Notes: generated from the letters alone by a model not told the origin. A stretch of 40,539 nt of DNA from Lachnospiraceae bacterium (GCA_022764445.1 JALERT010000209.1:1-40539), one strand, 5' to 3'. Positions 8,761-19,102 are shown, counted from the first letter of the stretch. A program made the numbers and translations.

Positions 8761-9198
8761 ATGTTAAACCGAAAAAAACACTGTTATAACCGAATAAATT
8801 TATTATTATATTCATTATTATTACTTATTTTATGCCCTTTTATGACTTCATGTTCATCAAAACAAGACTATCCAAAGACTTCAGACATTGATTATACCAT
8901 AGTAACAGGTTCTGATATTCCTTCAGAACTAAAAGAACTTATAAAAGAAAGACGCGAAAACAGCTTCGAGTTAAGTTACAGTGACGGATCATATCTTTAT
9001 ATTGTAAAAGGATACGGAAGACATGACACCTCCGGATATAATGTAAGTGTCACCGATCTATATCAGTCAGATGACAATATAATTTTTGAAACTGATATAA
9101 AAGGACCTTCCGAAGATGATAAAGTACACGAAAGGGCAACTTATCCTTATATAGTTGTTAAAACAGAATATATGGGAAATTCAGTTGTATTTAAATAA
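8761..9198 (+). CDS. Lipoprotein with PrcB C-terminal-like domain
   Basis: Lipobox FMTSC; C-terminal region YLYIVKGYGRHDTSGYNVSVTDLYQ...ATYPYIVVKTEYMG resembles PrcB_C. Confidence 0.65.
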   Translation: MLNRKKHCYNRINLLLYSLLLLILCPFMTSCSSKQDYPKTSDIDYTIVTGSDIPSELKELIKERRENSFELSYSDGSYLYIVKGYGRHDTSGYNVSVTDLYQSDDNIIFETDIKGPSEDDKVHERATYPYIVVKTEYMGNSVVFK

Positions 9199-9216: not shown

Positions 9217-10203
9217 TTATTTGAATGCCTCCTTTTTTATAACTCTATATTTGATATTTGCAAATGTAACTATATCATTTAATTTACAATGTATAGTTAC
9301 ATGGGCAGATATCTTTTTATCATTAATATATGTACCATTGGTGGAGCCAAGATCTTTAATATTTATCCCATCAGATTCAGGATATATCATTGCGTGGCGT
9401 CTGCTTATCTGCATTAATGGTATGTATATATCACTTTCATTTGATCTTCCAATTATATATCCCTCTTCTTTGTCCTTTTTCATTGTAATGCCATTATGCA
9501 TAGTTATAAGAATATTTTCTGGAGCCACCTTACCACCAAATCGTTTATCTGATTTATAATCGCCACATAAAGCAAGACCATACACTTTATCATCTGTTGC
9601 TTTTACACCTTTATCATATTTTGTGTCTTTACAGATACTCTCTTCATTTTTATTATAATCCGTATCACTATCGGATTTATCTTCAGGTATACACTGGAAG
9701 TTATTCATATAAAGTTTTACATTATCATATAAAAATCCGTCACAAGCCAAAATGTTGTACATACCATATATAAATTCCACTGCCATTTTATCATTATGAT
9801 CTGTCTTTTTAAGGAAAAAGGATGTTAATTCAATTATATCTTTTTGAAAGTCACTTTCTCTCCAAGGCACACAGCATACTGCAATCTTATTATTTCTTTT
9901 ATCAAGATAAATATAATCCGGCTTTATAACATAATTTTCTTCATATATAAAATATGCTTCTCCCTGTTGAAGAGCTCCTGCAATACCATCATATACATTA
10001 TACAAAAAGCTATAATCTGCTTTTTTTATCTTAAGATATTCCTCCACTGATATCATGCCTTTTGTATTATAATAAAAGCATTTCTTATTATCCTCATATC
10101 TAAGCTCCATATTAATAATACAGTTAATATCATTATTAATAAGCATCTTTTCTGCCAGTGTATCTTTTTCCTCGTTTTCTTCTGTAAGCATAAAATATGA
10201 CAT
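9217..10203 (-). CDS. FHA domain protein with DUF6382-like N-terminus, Tad-locus associated
   Basis: C-terminal FHA: YIIGRSNESDIYIPLMQISRRHAMIYPESDGINIKDLGSTNGTYINDKKI. Confidence 0.88.
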   Translation of the reverse strand: MSYFMLTEENEEKDTLAEKMLINNDINCIINMELRYEDNKKCFYYNTKGMISVEEYLKIKKADYSFLYNVYDGIAGALQQGEAYFIYEENYVIKPDYIYLDKRNNKIAVCCVPWRESDFQKDIIELTSFFLKKTDHNDKMAVEFIYGMYNILACDGFLYDNVKLYMNNFQCIPEDKSDSDTDYNKNEESICKDTKYDKGVKATDDKVYGLALCGDYKSDKRFGGKVAPENILITMHNGITMKKDKEEGYIIGRSNESDIYIPLMQISRRHAMIYPESDGINIKDLGSTNGTYINDKKISAHVTIHCKLNDIVTFANIKYRVIKKEAFK

Positions 10204-10301
10204 TCTACTGTCTTTTATATCTGTTCTGTCTAGAATAATTATCTACCCCTTTTACTATTTTTATTTATGATTCCAATTAATTTCACTATCTTCTGTTAAT
10301 T

Positions 10302-10784
10302 TTACTGCCTGTCATGCGTCTTTTCCTTATTGTCGCCAAATATTTCTTTTGTTCTGATAACAGACTCTGGATGTATTTTCATATATTTAATTTTATATGC
10401 AAGCTTTAAATCTGTATTCATATACCTGCTTATAAGCGGAACAGCTATATGCTTCACGGCAGATACACTTGCATCGACTGATATTTTTTTGTCTGATATA
10501 TTCCCACCTTCCACATTCATCATCCATAATTTACTCTGCATATCACGCTGCCACACCTTAGAAGAATTATATGACTTCATTTCCTGTGCCACCTCCACCG
10601 TTTTTTCTTTTATATTGGCATATAATATTACCCTGTCATGAAGATAAAAAAGCATTAATATCATGGCAAATATAATCCCTAAAACAATAGGAACAATAAA
10701 TGATGCTTCTACCGTATAACTTCCTGGCAGTCCCAATCTGCTATTAGGATAATGATATTTTCTTTTTTTATTACCAAAATGCAT
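10302..10784 (-). CDS. TadE-like pseudopilin
   Basis: TadE-type site GSYTVEASFIVPIVLGIIFAMIL. Confidence 0.85.
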   Translation of the reverse strand: MHFGNKKRKYHYPNSRLGLPGSYTVEASFIVPIVLGIIFAMILMLFYLHDRVILYANIKEKTVEVAQEMKSYNSSKVWQRDMQSKLWMMNVEGGNISDKKISVDASVSAVKHIAVPLISRYMNTDLKLAYKIKYMKIHPESVIRTKEIFGDNKEKTHDRQ

Positions 10785-10828
10785 CTTATTTCCCCCTAGT
10801 TTATCTGTCGTATTGCCATCTTAACCTG

Positions 10829-11269
10829 CTACAGCACAAAATAAATAATATATCCCGCCATAACGTATGGTGCTAACGGCATCTGGTATTTACGTCCCTT
10901 CTTTTTAACCAGCATAAGATATGCCGCACCTAATGCTGCAATCATAAAGCTTATAAATATCAGATATATGTTATTAATTGAACCTATTCCGACACCAGTC
11001 ATTATATATACGCAAACATCTCCAAGACCTAACTGGCCTCCACTTATTACAGATATAGCAATAAACAAGCCACCAGTAATAATTAGTGAAATGACTTCAA
11101 ATAAGTTTAACTGACCTGTAATGATATTTAATACAATACAAATAATACTAACCGGAATAACTACTCCCAAATATATTTTCTTTGATCTTATATCTGTTAT
11201 AGTGCATATAAAAAGACCTATTCCAACAGCAATATAACTAATTATTTTTAATATCTCATTAATTTCCAC
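10829..11269 (-). CDS. A24-family prepilin peptidase (TadV/CpaA-like), first of two
   Basis: TDIRSKKIYLGVVIP and GLGDV (GxGD) aspartates, multiple TMs. GTG start at 11269 preceded by GAGGTGATAAAA is preferred over the ORF start at 11323. Confidence 0.85.
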   Translation of the reverse strand: MEINEILKIISYIAVGIGLFICTITDIRSKKIYLGVVIPVSIICIVLNIITGQLNLFEVISLIITGGLFIAISVISGGQLGLGDVCVYIMTGVGIGSINNIYLIFISFMIAALGAAYLMLVKKKGRKYQMPLAPYVMAGYIIYFVL

Positions 11270-11279
11270 TTTTATCACC

Positions 11280-12080
11280 TCATTTACCACATTTGCTGCA
11301 AGGTGGCATGCTGCCAACATCACTTAATTTTACTTGACGTATGCCTCTTTTAATACCTGAACATCCTTTATCTGTATGATACCTGTCACCATATGATGTA
11401 ATATATACAACATCTCCTCCATTACTATTTGCACCACAGCACCTTTCACATGGTTTGTACCTGCCACCCGAAGAATTTCTCTTTTTATCAACCTGATTAA
11501 TAAGGCAGCTGACCACAGAAGGATTAAGATATGAACACCCGGAATTTCTATGATATACCCTTCCATTTTCAGTTATGTATACATATACATCATCCGTTTT
11601 ATCAGGCAGGCCTTCCATCATACTTTTGCCTTTAAAGTCACTAAACCTCATCTGCTGATATAATCTCACTTTAAAAAAATTTGTTCCGATTACAGGTATT
11701 GTTTCTTTATATTCTACATGGCATAACTTATTATCTTCATCCCATACAAGCATTTTTCCGTCTGACAAAAATGTAGATACACTGCTTATTTTAGTATTGT
11801 ATGCTTCATACTCTCTTACAGCCTCAGACATCTGAAACTGCATGGTATTTATCCCCAATAAAATCTGAAACACATAAAATAATGATATAACAACAAGGAA
11901 AAATATTGGTACACATAATGATGCTTCCACTGTCATAGAACCCAAAAGCCAATGGGAATGTCCTCTATGTGTATATTTATTGTTAATCAGGGGAGCTGTC
12001 TTTATAATAGAATTTAATTTATTGTTATTATCGTTACTTTTCTGTTGATAGAGGACATCCCCATTAGCTCTTGTATTCAT
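11280..12080 (-). CDS. TadE-like pseudopilin with two C-terminal Cys/His (putative zinc) modules
   Basis: GSMTVEASLCVPIFFLVVISLFY plus two repeats of VYIT..G..YH....CS.......PC..C. Confidence 0.85.
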   Translation of the reverse strand: MNTRANGDVLYQQKSNDNNNKLNSIIKTAPLINNKYTHRGHSHWLLGSMTVEASLCVPIFFLVVISLFYVFQILLGINTMQFQMSEAVREYEAYNTKISSVSTFLSDGKMLVWDEDNKLCHVEYKETIPVIGTNFFKVRLYQQMRFSDFKGKSMMEGLPDKTDDVYVYITENGRVYHRNSGCSYLNPSVVSCLINQVDKKRNSSGGRYKPCERCCGANSNGGDVVYITSYGDRYHTDKGCSGIKRGIRQVKLSDVGSMPPCSKCGK

Positions 12081-13689
12081 ATAAAGCGATCACCTCTCTT
12101 CCTGACATCATCTCACCTTTTTCATCCCTTTTTAAATACGAATATGCATATGGTATATCATATGAAACTCTAAACCTGGCACTGCATATGCAGGTATCGA
12201 TACAAAAACTTTCCTGAAATCTTTTTCTCATATCGTGTTGTATCAGATCAAGCATCCTCTCTTTAATAGTCTTTTTAGGAACAAGCATCTGAAGCATATA
12301 AATTCCTTTTATATATGTAAATTCATCTGCTCTTTTTATATCAGACTCCGCACCATACTGAAGAGCCTTTTGCTCAAACAGATTCTTTGAGCCAAGGCAG
12401 ATTTCCTCATATGACATTTTAAAATTCGTGACATTCTTAACCATAGGAACAGCCCTTCCCTGAAGTACTGCACATAAATCAATACATGATTCTTCATAGG
12501 CAAGTATAGTAAGTATTGTATACTTTACTGCCGTTATAACAGCAGGTATGCCTATTACCCCTGCTATCGTTGTAGCGGTTGCAAGACTTTTTTCCTGAAG
12601 TATTGGATCAGATACAATATATGAGTAATTAACAGCCATTCTCATGACCATAAGTCTGTTTACTACATATAACAGATTGTCCTTCTCGCTTTCCTTCCCT
12701 GCAATTATATACTCATTCCCATAGTCCACTGTCTTATTAAGATTATTAACGTATGACGAAAACATCTTTTGTGCATATATGATATATTCTATCTTTCCGG
12801 CGGATGATTTTTCCTCCTTTTCTAATTCAACACCCTGACCAGACTGGTTATCCTCTATATACTTTTTAAGATATCCTCCTGCACTAAACTTTTCATCATT
12901 ACCTGCTTTATCTTTTTTCTTTTCATCACATGATTCTCTTTTACATACTTCTTTTTCAGAAACATTATGTACATCACATACAAGAGATAAAATTCCATCC
13001 TTAACCATGTCCTTAAGACATTTAAGCGGATTCCCACCTGCACTGTCACTAACAGTATTATCTTTTTTCTCATCATCGTTACCCGTATTCTTAGCATTGG
13101 AACTTGGTAAATTTCCACTGCCATCTTTGGGATTGCTTCCATTGTCATTTTGATCAAATTTCCCACTTTCGTAATCATCTGCTACAGACAATCCATCAGT
13201 ATCCATCTTTCTATTCATTAATCCTGTATCTGTATTCATAATGCTGTTCTTAATATCATCAACTGCAACTACTTTAAGATAAGATGATATCTGTTTATCA
13301 AAAAAGTCATCTTCTGTAATATACTTACATTTATCCGGTTCTGACTTAATATTACAAAGCCTGTAAATGTCAGAGTAAGATTTATAAGAATTTTCAGGAC
13401 GGACAGTAAGATTGTCTTTAAGAATTTCATTAAATTCATTATTAATGTCAATTTCACCTAATCCGTTATATCCTCCATATCCAAAAAGCTTATATTGTTC
13501 ATAAAGTTCTCTGTTATAATCCCCCATAACAGTCTCTGCAGCAGAATCAGCAGCCACAGAGACATACGCATCAGATGACAGAACTCTTGTATTTTCTATA
13601 ACTGCAGTTATCATTGACATTATAATTACAAATATGAACGTTAAAAATACAGTTATACTCCCTCTTTTACACATATAATTATCTCTCAT
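12064..13689 (-). CDS. DUF5702/TadG-like protein of the Tad locus
   Basis: N-terminal KRGSITVFLTFIFVIIMSMITAVIENTR; position between the TadE-like and Flp1-like genes. Confidence 0.8.
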   Translation of the reverse strand: MRDNYMCKRGSITVFLTFIFVIIMSMITAVIENTRVLSSDAYVSVAADSAAETVMGDYNRELYEQYKLFGYGGYNGLGEIDINNEFNEILKDNLTVRPENSYKSYSDIYRLCNIKSEPDKCKYITEDDFFDKQISSYLKVVAVDDIKNSIMNTDTGLMNRKMDTDGLSVADDYESGKFDQNDNGSNPKDGSGNLPSSNAKNTGNDDEKKDNTVSDSAGGNPLKCLKDMVKDGILSLVCDVHNVSEKEVCKRESCDEKKKDKAGNDEKFSAGGYLKKYIEDNQSGQGVELEKEEKSSAGKIEYIIYAQKMFSSYVNNLNKTVDYGNEYIIAGKESEKDNLLYVVNRLMVMRMAVNYSYIVSDPILQEKSLATATTIAGVIGIPAVITAVKYTILTILAYEESCIDLCAVLQGRAVPMVKNVTNFKMSYEEICLGSKNLFEQKALQYGAESDIKRADEFTYIKGIYMLQMLVPKKTIKERMLDLIQHDMRKRFQESFCIDTCICSARFRVSYDIPYAYSYLKRDEKGEMMSGREVIALYEYKS

Positions 13690-13881
13690 TCAGTCTATTG
13701 ATATATTTTCGTTAACCTTTCCGGCACCGGAATTAATCTGTGCAAATGCACTTTTTACTATCTTGGTAATCTGTTCTCTGAAAATAACAATTATCATAAT
13801 CAGTATTACAAGAATCAATATAATTTCAACAACACCTATTCCATCCTCTTCATTCCAAAACTCTTTTAATATTCTAACCAT
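13690..13881 (-). CDS. Flp1-family type IVb pilin
   Basis: 63 aa; EEDGIGVVEIILILVILIMIIVIF, i.e. G/IGVVE prepilin site plus hydrophobic helix, between the DUF5702 and tadC-like genes. Confidence 0.88.
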   Translation of the reverse strand: MVRILKEFWNEEDGIGVVEIILILVILIMIIVIFREQITKIVKSAFAQINSGAGKVNENISID

Positions 13882-13901
13882 AATTAAAACCTCTCTTTCT
13901 C

Positions 13902-15275
13902 TTACATACTTTGAAATGCCGCATAAATAATAATTGCAAATACCTCGACCATCATTATCATCATCGGAAAAAGAAGTTTAGTGCTGGCTTCTTCTCCTAG
14001 TATCCTGGCGTTTTCCTTTTTTTCATTCATAACATCAACAGCCTCATATTCAAGTATTCTAAGCATATCTGAAGTTCCTTTTCTAAGATTCTGTGTTATT
14101 AGAGTACTGAATTTCATATATGGAAGTAATCCTATCCTCCTTCCAAATAACTCATATGCTTTTATCTCAGACATGCCGTTTTCAATGTTATGACGTGTAA
14201 CAAGCATTTCCTCATATGCGTATGACTTTTTATTATCCTTATCAAGTCTGTCAAGATATTCATCAGTCATCCTGTTCCAGGCTCCCCTTACACCTAGACC
14301 GGCACCTATAAGAAGAATAAATTTCTCAATAAGCTCAGGATATTCCTTCCTAAGTTCCTTATCTCTTTTTTCTATAGATGATTTCATTTGGCTGTCCATT
14401 ACAAATGGAACCGAAATAATACATAACACACCACACAATAATACACAGGCAATACTCTTATCCCTTTTTTCACTATAATGAACGCTATGTCCCATAACTT
14501 CTTTTGGAAGCATAAGATATTTCTGATCTGACGTATTATCTTTTGCAATTCCTAACATCTCTTTCCACTTATCCCATATAAGATCCTGCTGGCTCTTTTG
14601 TGGTGGAATTACAGTTAACTGATAAAATAACTCTTTTTTATAATCCTTATACTTAAGCGTAACTCCTATCTCAAGCTGCTTCTCACTTTTTAATCCATCT
14701 CTGTTAAGCTTTCCATTATCATCTATATATTCTTCTGAATCACCATTCCATATTATTTCAATTGCGCTATTCGGTATTGACTTAACGAAATTAAGATTTT
14801 TAGTAATTTTATCTGCTGACTCATTCTCTCCAAGATAATTCTTATCTATATATCTCTGCGCCTCATCTATTTTTTTCTTAAGTTCTTTGTCAGAATACTC
14901 TTTAGCCGGAATATCAACCGTCACATCTTTTTCCTCACCATCAATCTTAGTCCTGATATTTACACTTTTTTCGCTTCCTCCTACATCCTCTTTTTCAATA
15001 AAGTAATCATTGTATAAGATCTTCTTTCCGCCAGATGAGACAATACAAATGGGAATTAATAGCAAAATACATATCAGGATTAATGTAACAGATGTAATAA
15101 TCTTACTAAAATATTCTCTTTCTATTTCCTTTGAATCAATACCTACATAAATTTTCTTAAGCTTTTCCAGTCTGTCCTTATTTATTGACAGTCTGAATTT
15201 TGTATTCAGATAATCATATATTATTTCTGAAACACCATAAAATGGATTATTCTTAATAATATCTTTAAACTTCAA
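13902..15275 (-). CDS. tadC: TadC-like type II/IV secretion F-domain protein with large extracytoplasmic insertion
   Basis: Conserved RKEYPELIEKFILLIGAGLGVRGAW...NIENGMSEIKAYELFGRR...EASTKLLFPMMIMMVEVFAIII; about 200 aa inserted between TM1 and TM2. Confidence 0.88.
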   Translation of the reverse strand: MKFKDIIKNNPFYGVSEIIYDYLNTKFRLSINKDRLEKLKKIYVGIDSKEIEREYFSKIITSVTLILICILLLIPICIVSSGGKKILYNDYFIEKEDVGGSEKSVNIRTKIDGEEKDVTVDIPAKEYSDKELKKKIDEAQRYIDKNYLGENESADKITKNLNFVKSIPNSAIEIIWNGDSEEYIDDNGKLNRDGLKSEKQLEIGVTLKYKDYKKELFYQLTVIPPQKSQQDLIWDKWKEMLGIAKDNTSDQKYLMLPKEVMGHSVHYSEKRDKSIACVLLCGVLCIISVPFVMDSQMKSSIEKRDKELRKEYPELIEKFILLIGAGLGVRGAWNRMTDEYLDRLDKDNKKSYAYEEMLVTRHNIENGMSEIKAYELFGRRIGLLPYMKFSTLITQNLRKGTSDMLRILEYEAVDVMNEKKENARILGEEASTKLLFPMMIMMVEVFAIIIYAAFQSM

Positions 15276-16005
15276 TATCCATTATCCTTTCATTCCATTT
15301 AAAGGCTAATATATATACTATAAACAATACTGTCATTACCATTCTTCCTGCTCCAATATAAAGGCAGTCAAGAAATCCCGGTGAGCATATCCAGAAATAC
15401 AATATAATTCCAAGTGGAATAAAATTCATAATCTTTCCTTCCATGCTCTTTCCGGCAATCAGTGTCTTTATCTCCCTCTTAACCTCTATTCTGCTGCTTA
15501 TCCTTGATGCAGTAGTTCTTGTTATATCAATAAGATCACCACCAGTTTTCTTTGCTATCTGAAATACCTCAGCAAAATTATATATATCATCTACCTTTGT
15601 ATATTCCGCAAATTCCATTAATACTTCTTCAAGAGGCTGGTTAAGCTTTACCATGCTGATTATATTTTCTATTTCTCCTGCAAGTTCTGACTCATCTCCA
15701 TATAATATCTTTAGATCATTTATCGATTCCTTAAAGGCATTCTCAATGGAATATCCGGCATTAAGAGATGCAGCGACTGCAAGCATCACCTCTTTAAATT
15801 CAAGATTAATCCGCCACCTCCATTCACTCTGACGCTTTTTTCTTTCAAGCGGAATACTATAGATTCCATATATAAAGCCTAATATAAGAACTATTGCAAA
15901 AGATCTGTAAAAAAAATAAAGAACTGCACCACCTTTTATAAATCCAAATAAAAAAGCTTTTATATCATTAATATCCGGATGTACTTTTTTAAGTTGTATA
16001 GTCAT
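15265..16005 (-). CDS. tadB: TadB-like type II/IV secretion F-domain protein
   Basis: LNLEFKEVMLAVAASLNAGYSIENAF...AKKTGGDLIDITRTTASRISSRIEVKREIKTLIAGKSMEGKIM. Confidence 0.9.
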   Translation of the reverse strand: MTIQLKKVHPDINDIKAFLFGFIKGGAVLYFFYRSFAIVLILGFIYGIYSIPLERKKRQSEWRWRINLEFKEVMLAVAASLNAGYSIENAFKESINDLKILYGDESELAGEIENIISMVKLNQPLEEVLMEFAEYTKVDDIYNFAEVFQIAKKTGGDLIDITRTTASRISSRIEVKREIKTLIAGKSMEGKIMNFIPLGIILYFWICSPGFLDCLYIGAGRMVMTVLFIVYILAFKWNERIMDIEV

Positions 16006-16011
16006 CTATCA

Positions 16012-17313
16012 TCACACCTCTATCCCTGCATACTGTAATTTTCTTATATTCTTCAGATTATTTCCTGTTGATTTAAGGCATCCGATAACCTTCCCTGTCG
16101 GATCTTCTCCCTCCTCTTTAAATTCATATAGAGGATTAACAAGTATATCTCCATCTTTTACGTCAAGAATCTCTGATATCTCCAACACTTTTCTTGACTT
16201 GTCACGTAATCTTCCAAGCTGGACTGAAATATCTATAGCCGATGCAATATTATTTCTGATAGCAGTTACCGGAATATCTTTACCCATAAGGACAAGAGTC
16301 TCAAGTCTTCTAAGTGAATCTCTTGCCGAATTAGAGTGAATCGTACTTAAACTTCCATCTGCTCCTGTTGAAAATGCCTGAAGCATATCGAAGGCAGATG
16401 CATCTCTTGTTTCTCCAACGATTATTCTGTCTGGTCTCATTCGCATACATGATCTTATGAGGTCTCTTATTGTAATTTCATTCTTTCCCTCAACATTGGC
16501 ATTTCTTGTCTCAAGTCTTACAAGATTAGGAACATTTTGTATCTGAAGTTCGGCCGAATCCTCAATTGTAATTATTCTTTCATCAGAAGGGATATAATTT
16601 GAAAGCGCATTAAGAAAAGTTGTTTTACCACTTCCCGTACCTCCACTTATAAGAATGTTGTACTTTGCCCTAACAAGTTTTTTCATAAAAGATACTGCCT
16701 CATTTGTAATAGAGCCAATCTCTACAAGTCTTTCCATAGTAATAGGCTTGTCCGGGAATTTACGGATGGTTATTATAGGTCCATCGAGTGCAACAGGCGG
16801 TAATACTATATTTACTCTGGAACCATCAAGAAGTCTTACATCAACTATAGGATTAGCCTCATTTACCATGCGGTTAACTTTTGATACTATCTGCTGCACC
16901 ACATTATCTAATCTTGCTTTATCTGAAAAGCTGTATGGATATTCATCTATTACACCATTTTTCTCAATAAATATATGTGATGTTCCGTTGACCATTATTT
17001 CCGTAATCTCCGGGTTATCAATTATATCCTGTAAAACATCAAGTCCTCTTATAGAATTATATATACTTCTTACAAGATACTCTTTTTCATCGACGGAAAG
17101 ATATGTATCATGTCCACTTTTTAGTACATATTCCTCTATTAGATCATGTATATACTCATCTGATACAGCCCCTTCACTATTGATTGACCTTACGATATTT
17201 TCCCTTAATCTTTCTTTTGTTTCTTCTATTTGTTCTCTTCTAACAGTATCATCCTCCCATCCTGTTACTATGTACTTTCGGATTGCAATATTATGCATAC
17301 TCACTGACTGCAT
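16012..17313 (-). CDS. tadA: TadA/CpaF family pilus assembly ATPase
   Basis: Walker A ISGGTGSGKTTFLNAL, Asp box RIITIEDSAELQI, TGADGSLSTIHSNSARDSLRRLE. Confidence 0.96.
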   Translation of the reverse strand: MQSVSMHNIAIRKYIVTGWEDDTVRREQIEETKERLRENIVRSINSEGAVSDEYIHDLIEEYVLKSGHDTYLSVDEKEYLVRSIYNSIRGLDVLQDIIDNPEITEIMVNGTSHIFIEKNGVIDEYPYSFSDKARLDNVVQQIVSKVNRMVNEANPIVDVRLLDGSRVNIVLPPVALDGPIITIRKFPDKPITMERLVEIGSITNEAVSFMKKLVRAKYNILISGGTGSGKTTFLNALSNYIPSDERIITIEDSAELQIQNVPNLVRLETRNANVEGKNEITIRDLIRSCMRMRPDRIIVGETRDASAFDMLQAFSTGADGSLSTIHSNSARDSLRRLETLVLMGKDIPVTAIRNNIASAIDISVQLGRLRDKSRKVLEISEILDVKDGDILVNPLYEFKEEGEDPTGKVIGCLKSTGNNLKNIRKLQYAGIEV

Positions 17314-18236
17314 AAATTCACAAAATTAATATTAGATAATACATCCTCCATTCCCTCACGCATAAGATATTTCTCAAAAGATTCCTGCATTTTATTCTGG
17401 AAACTATCCTCTGCTTTTGGAACCATCAGCTTATCACATGATTTCATTAAAACAAGTGAAGCCTCGCTTATAAACCCAATATCAAATATTATCGTTTCAT
17501 AATCTGTTTTCCTTGCAATGACATCAATAAACTCATTCATATCTCCGGCTGTAATACTGTATAAATCTCTATAATCATCAACAGGAAGAATACAGTCACA
17601 GCCTTCATAATTATGTATAATTGATTGAATTTTCATACCAAGTTTTCCCTTTTTCTGCTTGATATAAAATACAGCTTCAGACATTCCTCTGATATACTCA
17701 TTCTCATATTCCTTTTTCCTGTCTATATCCAGTCCGTCAAACATCTCCAGATTTATATAAAGAGTTTTTTTTACGCTATTAATTTGTTTTACGAGCTTCC
17801 ATGAAAACATTGATACTCCACTTCCTCCAAACGGAGAAAACACCCCTATAATCTCTTTATCTTTACGTCTGAATCCTGCCTGACAATCTTCTATAGAATC
17901 ATCATCAGCTATGATATTAAAAATTTCTTTGATAATTCTGTCAATTGACTGATACTTAAATATAACCGGATATTCTGAATACTCACAGACGCTGTCACCT
18001 TCTGAAAGTACAATTATTTTCTTTATCTGTCTGCACCCTGCTATATCATTAACCATATCCTGTCCCACTAAAAGGATATTGATTACATTGTCAGCCAAAT
18101 ACTGTCTGATGCTATCTAGTCCCGTAAATATCTGCACATCCATAAAATCATTCTTTTTATGACTTACATACTCTGAAAAACACCTTGAGTATGATATATC
18201 ATCCAACAATGCTATTTTAATTTTGCTCAACAACAT
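17301..18236 (-). CDS. TadZ/CpaE-like protein with divergent P-loop
   Basis: Pseudo-receiver N-terminus then IGVFSPFGGSGVSMFSWKLVKQIN (degenerate Walker A), directly upstream of tadA. Confidence 0.78.
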   Translation of the reverse strand: MLLSKIKIALLDDISYSRCFSEYVSHKKNDFMDVQIFTGLDSIRQYLADNVINILLVGQDMVNDIAGCRQIKKIIVLSEGDSVCEYSEYPVIFKYQSIDRIIKEIFNIIADDDSIEDCQAGFRRKDKEIIGVFSPFGGSGVSMFSWKLVKQINSVKKTLYINLEMFDGLDIDRKKEYENEYIRGMSEAVFYIKQKKGKLGMKIQSIIHNYEGCDCILPVDDYRDLYSITAGDMNEFIDVIARKTDYETIIFDIGFISEASLVLMKSCDKLMVPKAEDSFQNKMQESFEKYLMREGMEDVLSNINFVNLCSQ

Positions 18237-18736
18237 CCCCTCCTTATCAGTGTGATAAAATATGCGGCTGCCGTTATAGGTGCCATTGGTATAACATTAT
18301 CTTTACCATCTCTTTGCAATGAATAATATCTGGAATTACAATTTCTCCCATACATCATATATGTAAAAAGATGCATAAACCTTTTTAACAGTGATCTGTG
18401 ACTAAGCAAACGTATCAATGACACAAAACCAGCTATAATAAAAAGACAGACAAGCATTTCACAAAGGAAGTTCAGACCATATAAAAGACTTATAACAGAC
18501 CATAGTTTTATGTCGCCGGCACCAATACCACCAAATCTGTATAATGGAAATGCTGCTACTATAGTTATTAAGATATGCAAAATCCCAATCACAAGATTTT
18601 GTATATCTCCTTCCATAAGAAAAATCATAACTCCCAAAAACCACCCGGTCAGTATGATAGAATTCCTGATTTTACAATTCTTAAGATCATCCAGCCCTGA
18701 TAGAATTAAAACATGCAGCATAACTATTTCGCTCAT
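18227..18736 (-). CDS. A24-family prepilin peptidase, second of two
   Basis: LDDLKNCKIRNSIILTGW and GGIGAGDIKLWSVI (GxGD) motifs; multi-TM. Confidence 0.88.
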   Translation of the reverse strand: MSEIVMLHVLILSGLDDLKNCKIRNSIILTGWFLGVMIFLMEGDIQNLVIGILHILITIVAAFPLYRFGGIGAGDIKLWSVISLLYGLNFLCEMLVCLFIIAGFVSLIRLLSHRSLLKRFMHLFTYMMYGRNCNSRYYSLQRDGKDNVIPMAPITAAAYFITLIRRGCC

Positions 18737-18766: not shown

Positions 18767-18795
18767 AATATAGCACCATGGTAATCATTTGTCAA
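18767..18795 (-). promoter_or_regulatory. Predicted sigma-A promoter of the Tad operon
   Basis: Minus strand TTGACA - 17 nt - TATATT, followed by a GGAAAGGAG RBS and the prepilin peptidase start. Confidence 0.7.
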
Positions 18796-18829: not shown

Positions 18830-19102
18830 CTAAAGCACACTTGTTAATATCCACTGAAAAATATAAGTAAAAATAACTCCGCTTATACCTAATATGCCCG
18901 AAATGACAAGTGAAATTTGATTGATATTTACCATAAGATTTAACCCCATCATTTTTAATAAAAAATTCGCAAATGTAATAAATACAATGCCTGAAAGACA
19001 TCTTGTAAGTGTATTTATAAACAGCTCCTTTACATTTACGTTCATAAAACTAAGAAACAGTAAAAAAATCATCAAAAATGCCACATAATAAAAGTAATTC
19101 AA
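18830..19102 (-). CDS. bofA: BofA-like pro-sigma-K processing regulator
   Basis: 90 aa, two TMs, C-terminal ILGISGVIFTYIFQWIL resembling the BofA GxLGxPGV motif; next to a YaaL-type gene as in Bacilli/Clostridia. Confidence 0.75.
   Translation of the reverse strand: MNYFYYVAFLMIFLLFLSFMNVNVKELFINTLTRCLSGIVFITFANFLLKMMGLNLMVNINQISLVISGILGISGVIFTYIFQWILTSVL

Follow-up and report, generated by a model that had tools for sequence, protein, structure and literature searches.

Known Tad machines of monoderm bacteria have been described as minimal and carry neither a secretin nor RcpC (PMC6916266). The tad operons of Clostridia have already been surveyed (PMC3244431, PMC6668835), with Tad described as widespread there; Imam et al. 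2011 (PMC3244431) report tad operons as most widespread in Clostridia. Here we describe an eleven-gene tad locus at positions 9217-18736, on the minus strand, of a 40,539-nucleotide stretch of DNA from Lachnospiraceae bacterium (GCA_022764445.1, JALERT010000209.1:1-40539); this whole stretch is called the window below. By the features tested in its sequence, the locus is a complete predicted monoderm type IVc (Tad/Flp) pilus locus. It is real, well conserved and ordinary in kind, with conserved parts that are unexplained.

Eubacterium rectale is a member of the Lachnospiraceae and is expected to carry the same kind of tad locus. A solved structure of its TadZ (PDB 3fkq) is attributed to Xu et al. 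2012 (cited in PMC12786226). The window TadZ was homologous to 3fkq over 300 residues (E 7.6e-13), and the published structure covers TadZ only. With the Tad systems of Bifidobacterium breve and Micrococcus luteus (PMC6916266), the locus shares the pilin, two putative minor pilins, TadA, TadB, TadC, a peptidase and TadZ, as well as the lack of a secretin. Beyond these, it holds a DUF5702 protein, a DUF6382 protein (with FHA), a second peptidase within the locus, a minor pilin with twin modules and an enlarged TadC. A small Flp-like pilin without Tyr+6 and short A24 peptidases are shared with the Gram-positive tad operons of Imam et al. 2011 (PMC3244431). The text of that paper makes no mention of Lachnospiraceae, Roseburia or FHA, and DUF5702, the Cys modules and the conserved promoter seem undescribed in it. 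The tad operon of Bulleidia extructa (PMC12786226) is also that of a monoderm and also starts with tadV. However, it has 13 genes and was reported to be uniquely arranged and probably horizontally acquired, whereas the Lachnospiraceae locus has one order family-wide. Compared with diderm Tad, the window locus is without RcpA and RcpC, and compared with canonical Flp, its pilin has no Tyr+6.

In the literature searched, which left most subscription journals outside its coverage, no paper named DUF5702, and none was found on the Lachnospiraceae tad locus as a whole or on the function of its pilus. The initial annotation, made from this DNA before our analysis, had called the system under-described. 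This holds for parts of it, namely DUF5702 and a Cys-module tail without a convincing Pfam match, but less so for the whole, as Clostridia tad operons have been surveyed and a related TadZ structure has been solved.

Gene content of the locus

All eleven frames were open and the active-site motifs were kept, as judged by translation and Pfam matches. The first gene encodes an A24 prepilin peptidase (TadV-like; TFPP1, 18227-18736) with a PF01478 match of 42 bits, above the cut-off, and the DxxxxK and GxGD motifs. It is followed by TadZ (17301-18236; PF21194, 31.6 bits), whose Walker A lacks the usual lysine (GGSGVS), and by the assembly ATPase TadA (16012-17313; PF00437, T2SSE, 191.6 bits) with the Walker A GGTGSGKT. 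The best NCBIfam match of TadA was TIGR03819 (TadA family) at 275 bits, under that model's own cut-off. The platform proteins come next, TadB (15265-16005) matching PF00482 (T2SSF) at 31 bits and TadC (13902-15275) being assigned by its clustering with TadB homologues and its position in the locus, with no Pfam hit. The Flp-like major pilin (Flp1_like; 13690-13881) matched PF16982 at 78 bits and the DUF5702 protein (12064-13689) matched PF18960 at 205 bits. Two putative TadE-like minor pilins, both with a processing site, flank the second A24 prepilin peptidase (TFPP2, 10829-11323; PF01478, 26.3 bits against a cut-off of 26.5). The first of them, TadE2 (11280-12080), carries Cys modules and matched PF07811 at 18.8 bits, under the cut-off; the other, TadE1 (10302-10784), also fell under that cut-off at 20.5 bits and has the processing site GSYTVEAS. 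The unit ends with a DUF6382 and FHA protein (9217-10203; PF19909, 127.5 bits; PF00498, 60 bits). DUF6382, FHA, DUF5702, Flp1_like, T2SSE, T2SSF, TadZ and TFPP1 were all above their curated Pfam cut-offs.

The genes are tightly packed. Five pairs overlap (TFPP1/TadZ, TadZ/TadA, TadB/TadC, DUF5702/TadE2 and TadE2/TFPP2), and Flp and DUF5702 abut. These coordinates and family matches confirmed the eleven genes, their order, their place and their strand as first annotated. The absence of the RcpA secretin and RcpC was also borne out, in that neither PF00263 nor PF16976 had a match in the window's genome, an assembly of 88% completeness.

Upstream lies bofA (18830-19102, minus strand; PF07441, 39 bits), which is outside the machine. 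The other near neighbours are glgP, a PrcB_C protein, a DUF2508 gene and an S8 peptidase. The PrcB_C gene (8761-9198, plus strand) is lipoprotein-like and convergent with the end of the tad unit. The locus had been placed among sporulation and surface genes; with bofA directly upstream but these other genes nearby, this is partly right. Beyond the window, two further ATPase matches of the type IV pilus type lie side by side in the same genome and form a second pair (G000 contig C207:467-2822; L001, L003).

Conservation across the family and the promoter

DUF5702 was found in 148 of 150 Lachnospiraceae genomes, taken as one per genus, and was absent from all 14 control genomes. One of the two genomes without it (G038) retains pieces of TadC. 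A class-wide sample gave a DUF5702 match in 88 of 293 genomes, including every Lachnospiraceae genome drawn. We then compared 80 loci from 80 genera, mostly about 19 kb long and taken around DUF5702; counts over 81 include the window. Profiles grown from the window proteins recognised DUF5702, TadE2 and Flp in 81/81 loci, FHA/DUF6382 in 80/81, TadA, TadB and TadC in 76/81 and TadZ in 71/81, with some of the gaps due to short contigs. Where no flp was called, the gene is in many loci probably hidden by an overlapping frame, and it is intact in the genome of L045. Among the loci with all six anchor genes, the window's order was kept in 67 of 69 and a single strand in 69 of 69. The same cluster surrounds DUF5702 in 80 genera, more than chance would give. 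The gene set is the standard, near-universal Tad locus of Lachnospiraceae, so that the initial annotation's 'non-canonical' applies solely in comparison with Proteobacteria.

Of 74 loci, 34 had two recognisable prepilin peptidases, 29 had a single one and 11 had none. The pair appears to be common but not universal, or may have been partly missed. In 32/81 loci bofA adjoins tad upstream, and frequent downstream neighbours are a rhomboid protease, a HIT-like gene and a MurG-like gene; one representative rhomboid was tested against Pfam, and the other two were named from sequence. In most genera (48 loci, such as L056:13525-14196) the FHA gene is followed by the rhomboid protease gene, a neighbour that the window's locus lacks.

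A strong predicted promoter for the tad unit, TTGACA-N17-TATATT with a TG before the -10 (extended -10), lies at 18767-18795 on the minus strand, 30 bases 5' of the first start codon and behind the bofA stop, with a score of 11/12. The scan alone would be weak evidence, and the promoter is credible because promoters of the same type recur in other genera. Of 71 loci, 31 carry the pattern TNGACA-N16-18-TATA(A/T)T ahead of their first tad gene; shuffled sequence would give 0.1, and the other strand gave none. The recurring form, from the 420 bases upstream of the first tad gene in L036-L115, is TRGACA-N17-TATAAT, often with a YACAAA box. This box started exactly 30 bases before the -35 in 18 of the 31 promoter-bearing loci, as counted by eye. 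Of 19 genomes searched for the full pattern, 18 held a single copy; the set was picked because most of its members carry the pattern, and the result is therefore its single occurrence, not its presence. The window promoter has TTGACA and no YACAAA box.

This recurrence lends credibility to the one strong promoter first annotated before the unit. No minus-strand terminator was predicted within the locus, in agreement with a single unit. However, weaker promoter-like sites numbered at the level of chance (58 found against 65 +/- 8 expected), which leaves room for internal promoters. The gene set is compatible with one unit behind a single strong promoter. Two further candidates near the start of the unit were dropped. 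An inverted repeat around the bofA stop, considered as a conserved hairpin or operator, had at least six perfect pairs in only 6 of 32 loci. A sigma-D promoter upstream of the locus, considered because 18 loci have flagellin-like and FliS-like neighbours, was found in 1 of 70 at p<=0.1.

Modified components and the working of the machine

As first annotated, several components are modified, among them the modules of TadE2, the N-terminus of DUF5702 and a segment of TadC. All 80 recognised TadE2 copies end in two tandem modules of the H-C-CxxC type, with the strict motif twice in 75 and one residue changed in five. Residues H177, C182, C211, H235, C240, C261 and C264 were invariant in 41 sequences, and C214 was nearly so. 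In the AlphaFold model, the N-terminus forms a long helix, and there are also a beta domain and a tail whose pLDDT is mostly 81-96. No consistent or convincing Pfam family, zinc-binding or other, was found for the tail among 41 members, nor any convincing PDB match by sequence or fold; PDB profile matches to 'Pizza' designer proteins were short repeat matches and were rejected. The tail may resemble C-terminal modules of nucleases, with one MBL-fold protein as the example compared. Metal binding by the tail is suggested by the invariant His and Cys residues alone. Across the class sample, every Lachnospiraceae genome drawn had the double module, and a weaker match to it lay next to DUF5702 in two genomes from a single other family; elsewhere, mostly single modules were found. 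Single modules also terminate other Clostridia proteins (L140:538-1722, L134:1315-1632), one of which is an MBL-fold protein.

The pilin and pilin-like proteins differ at position +5. In Flp, where the +5 and +6 residues were taken from the alignment, G-1 and E+5 were kept and Tyr+6 was replaced by I, V, L or M; the Glu was invariant in 30 aligned sequences. A Glu at +5 was also detected in 51/73 TadE1 and 65/80 TadE2 proteins. The N-terminus of DUF5702 is pilin-like without Glu+5; of the 52 loci in which this residue could be read, 47 have F or Y and none has E. Its match to PF13400 (TadE/G-like N-terminus) reached 18.2 bits against a cut-off of 22.3. The DUF5702 model had a mean pLDDT of 80.6 and a pTM of 0.77, and no PDB match was found by sequence, nor by fold at E<=0.001.

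By hydropathy, the window TadC has about 180 extra residues between its first two hydrophobic spans. A long first loop recurs in most relatives, with the automated loop measure varying because of extra predicted N-terminal spans. G188, L256 and P257 of TadC were invariant in 41 sequences from 41 genera, and a weak aBig_2 match was under the cut-off. In the last protein of the unit, DUF6382 is the constant part, with FHA in about 51 of 80 relatives by motif count only. A Ser/Thr-kinase match was found in a 701-codon frame in the window's genome.

Taken together, these features suggest that the locus encodes, as a single unit, a type IVc pilus of a monoderm that would work as follows, a reading to which we give a probability of roughly 0.8. 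The A24 peptidases would cut the Flp-like prepilin and the minor pilins. TadA would power assembly upon the TadB/TadC platform, and TadZ would position the machine. TadE1, TadE2 and DUF5702 may form a starter or tip complex, in which DUF5702, lacking Glu+5, would be a member like TadG or GspK. The paired H-C-CxxC modules of TadE2 would be metal-stabilised extracellular domains, and the extra TadC segment may guide the filament, as the periplasmic RcpC does in diderms. Assembly would be tied to Ser/Thr-kinase signalling by DUF6382, which is joined to FHA in about two thirds of genera. The retention of the locus in nearly all genera makes a general role in contact with surfaces or mucus likelier than that of a niche-specific adhesin.

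Several points weigh against this scheme. Both TadE-like proteins and TFPP2 fell slightly short of their Pfam cut-offs, and TadC had no hit. The tip role of DUF5702 is by analogy, with no fold match behind it. The FHA domain is missing from about 29 of 80 relatives, and the filament, the metal and the kinase link are all predicted from sequence.

A machine used mainly for DNA uptake rather than adhesion is improbable, but it is the alternative that survives best. It has a monoderm precedent in the Tad pili of Micrococcus luteus (PMC6916266), and near-universality would fit such a housekeeping role. However, neither the locus nor its recurrent neighbours included a recognisable competence gene, and the second ATPase pair on contig C207 could serve uptake instead. 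Less probable still is a Tad-like secretion machine, with a short pseudopilus exporting through the membrane and without a long filament. The large ectodomain-like parts (DUF5702, TadE2 and the TadC segment) beside a very small pilin, known here from genes alone, would suit secretion, but the aligned genera retain a Flp-like major pilin whose processing site is intact, and no conserved cargo gene is linked to the locus. That the window's copy is a non-functional relic is very improbable, for while the host genome is a draft at 88% completeness and one congener has a split flp, the copy has eleven open frames, active-site motifs, tight spacing, a promoter and family-wide conservation. A monoderm Tad pilus stays the preferred reading of the locus.

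Split flp and meaning for the family

The newest part of our findings concerns the pilin gene flp as a possible attachment site for mobile elements. At least five genera, the window's own among them, have flp interrupted at one and the same codon; the window itself carries an intact copy. In four sampled genera (G117, G129, G003 and G107), the Flp profile matched as two halves, 2-27 and 25/26-58, with the cut after ...ILIL/IV in each. In three of these an integrated element of 26-64 kb separates the halves, which were 55.0 kb apart in G117, 64.2 kb in G129 and 26.3 kb in G003; in G107 they were on two contigs. In all, 3' halves were recorded in L085, L065, L059, L040, L243 and L231, and 5' halves in L151-L152, L150, L165 and L294. 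Directly before the 3' half, G117, G129 and G003 carry a trio of tyrosine recombinases together with one or two small DUF6262-like proteins, in a Tn554-like arrangement. G107 has a small DUF6262-like protein and an IS21-like pair, named from sequence. The insert of G117 contains VirD4- and VirB4-like genes, methylases and a helicase, and that of G003 contains a Mob relaxase, Z1, AIPR and a methylase. Only the flp 3' half was seen in Coprococcus comes MSK.16.63 (L243) and in isolate C63_86 (L231), and the recombinases of L243 were 99.8-100% identical to those of G117.

In the window's genus, G687 has both flp halves and the same left end of the element. Among the 11 further congeners in the sample, ten had a full-length Flp match and one had none. 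The left-end motif was found in 6 of 397 genomes, the sample holding one genome per species, and the reversed control gave 0; not all six lie within flp. The match in G639 (two mismatches) looks unrelated, and that in G676 sits in another gene. On contig C152 (L278:6830-6853) of the congener G479, whose flp is intact, a sequence like the right end is joined to the element's left end. The ends of this 8.4-kb contig do not overlap and the junction has no recombinase next to it; the joined ends could represent a circle, a tandem copy or a remnant of the element. Related recombinase trios also lie elsewhere in or beside tad (L045:202-5009, L207:44-3183, L238:2737-6760). The flp gene is intact in L238 and in the genome of L045, of which L207 is probably the same record.

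From these arrangements we tentatively propose, while holding it somewhat doubtful, that in Lachnospiraceae flp serves as the attachment site of large integrative elements bearing a tyrosine-recombinase trio, whose carriage would switch the pilus off and whose excision would restore it. The prophage in comK of Listeria has the same on/off logic.

The Lachnospiraceae belong to the commonest gut bacteria of mammals. If it is made and used, the Tad pilus would be a shared surface-contact machine of the family. This machine would include a minor pilin with paired Cys/His modules and the DUF5702 protein, both without a match among solved structures. The recurring promoter and the split-flp genera would offer a ready comparison, in which species with a naturally split flp are set beside their intact relatives.

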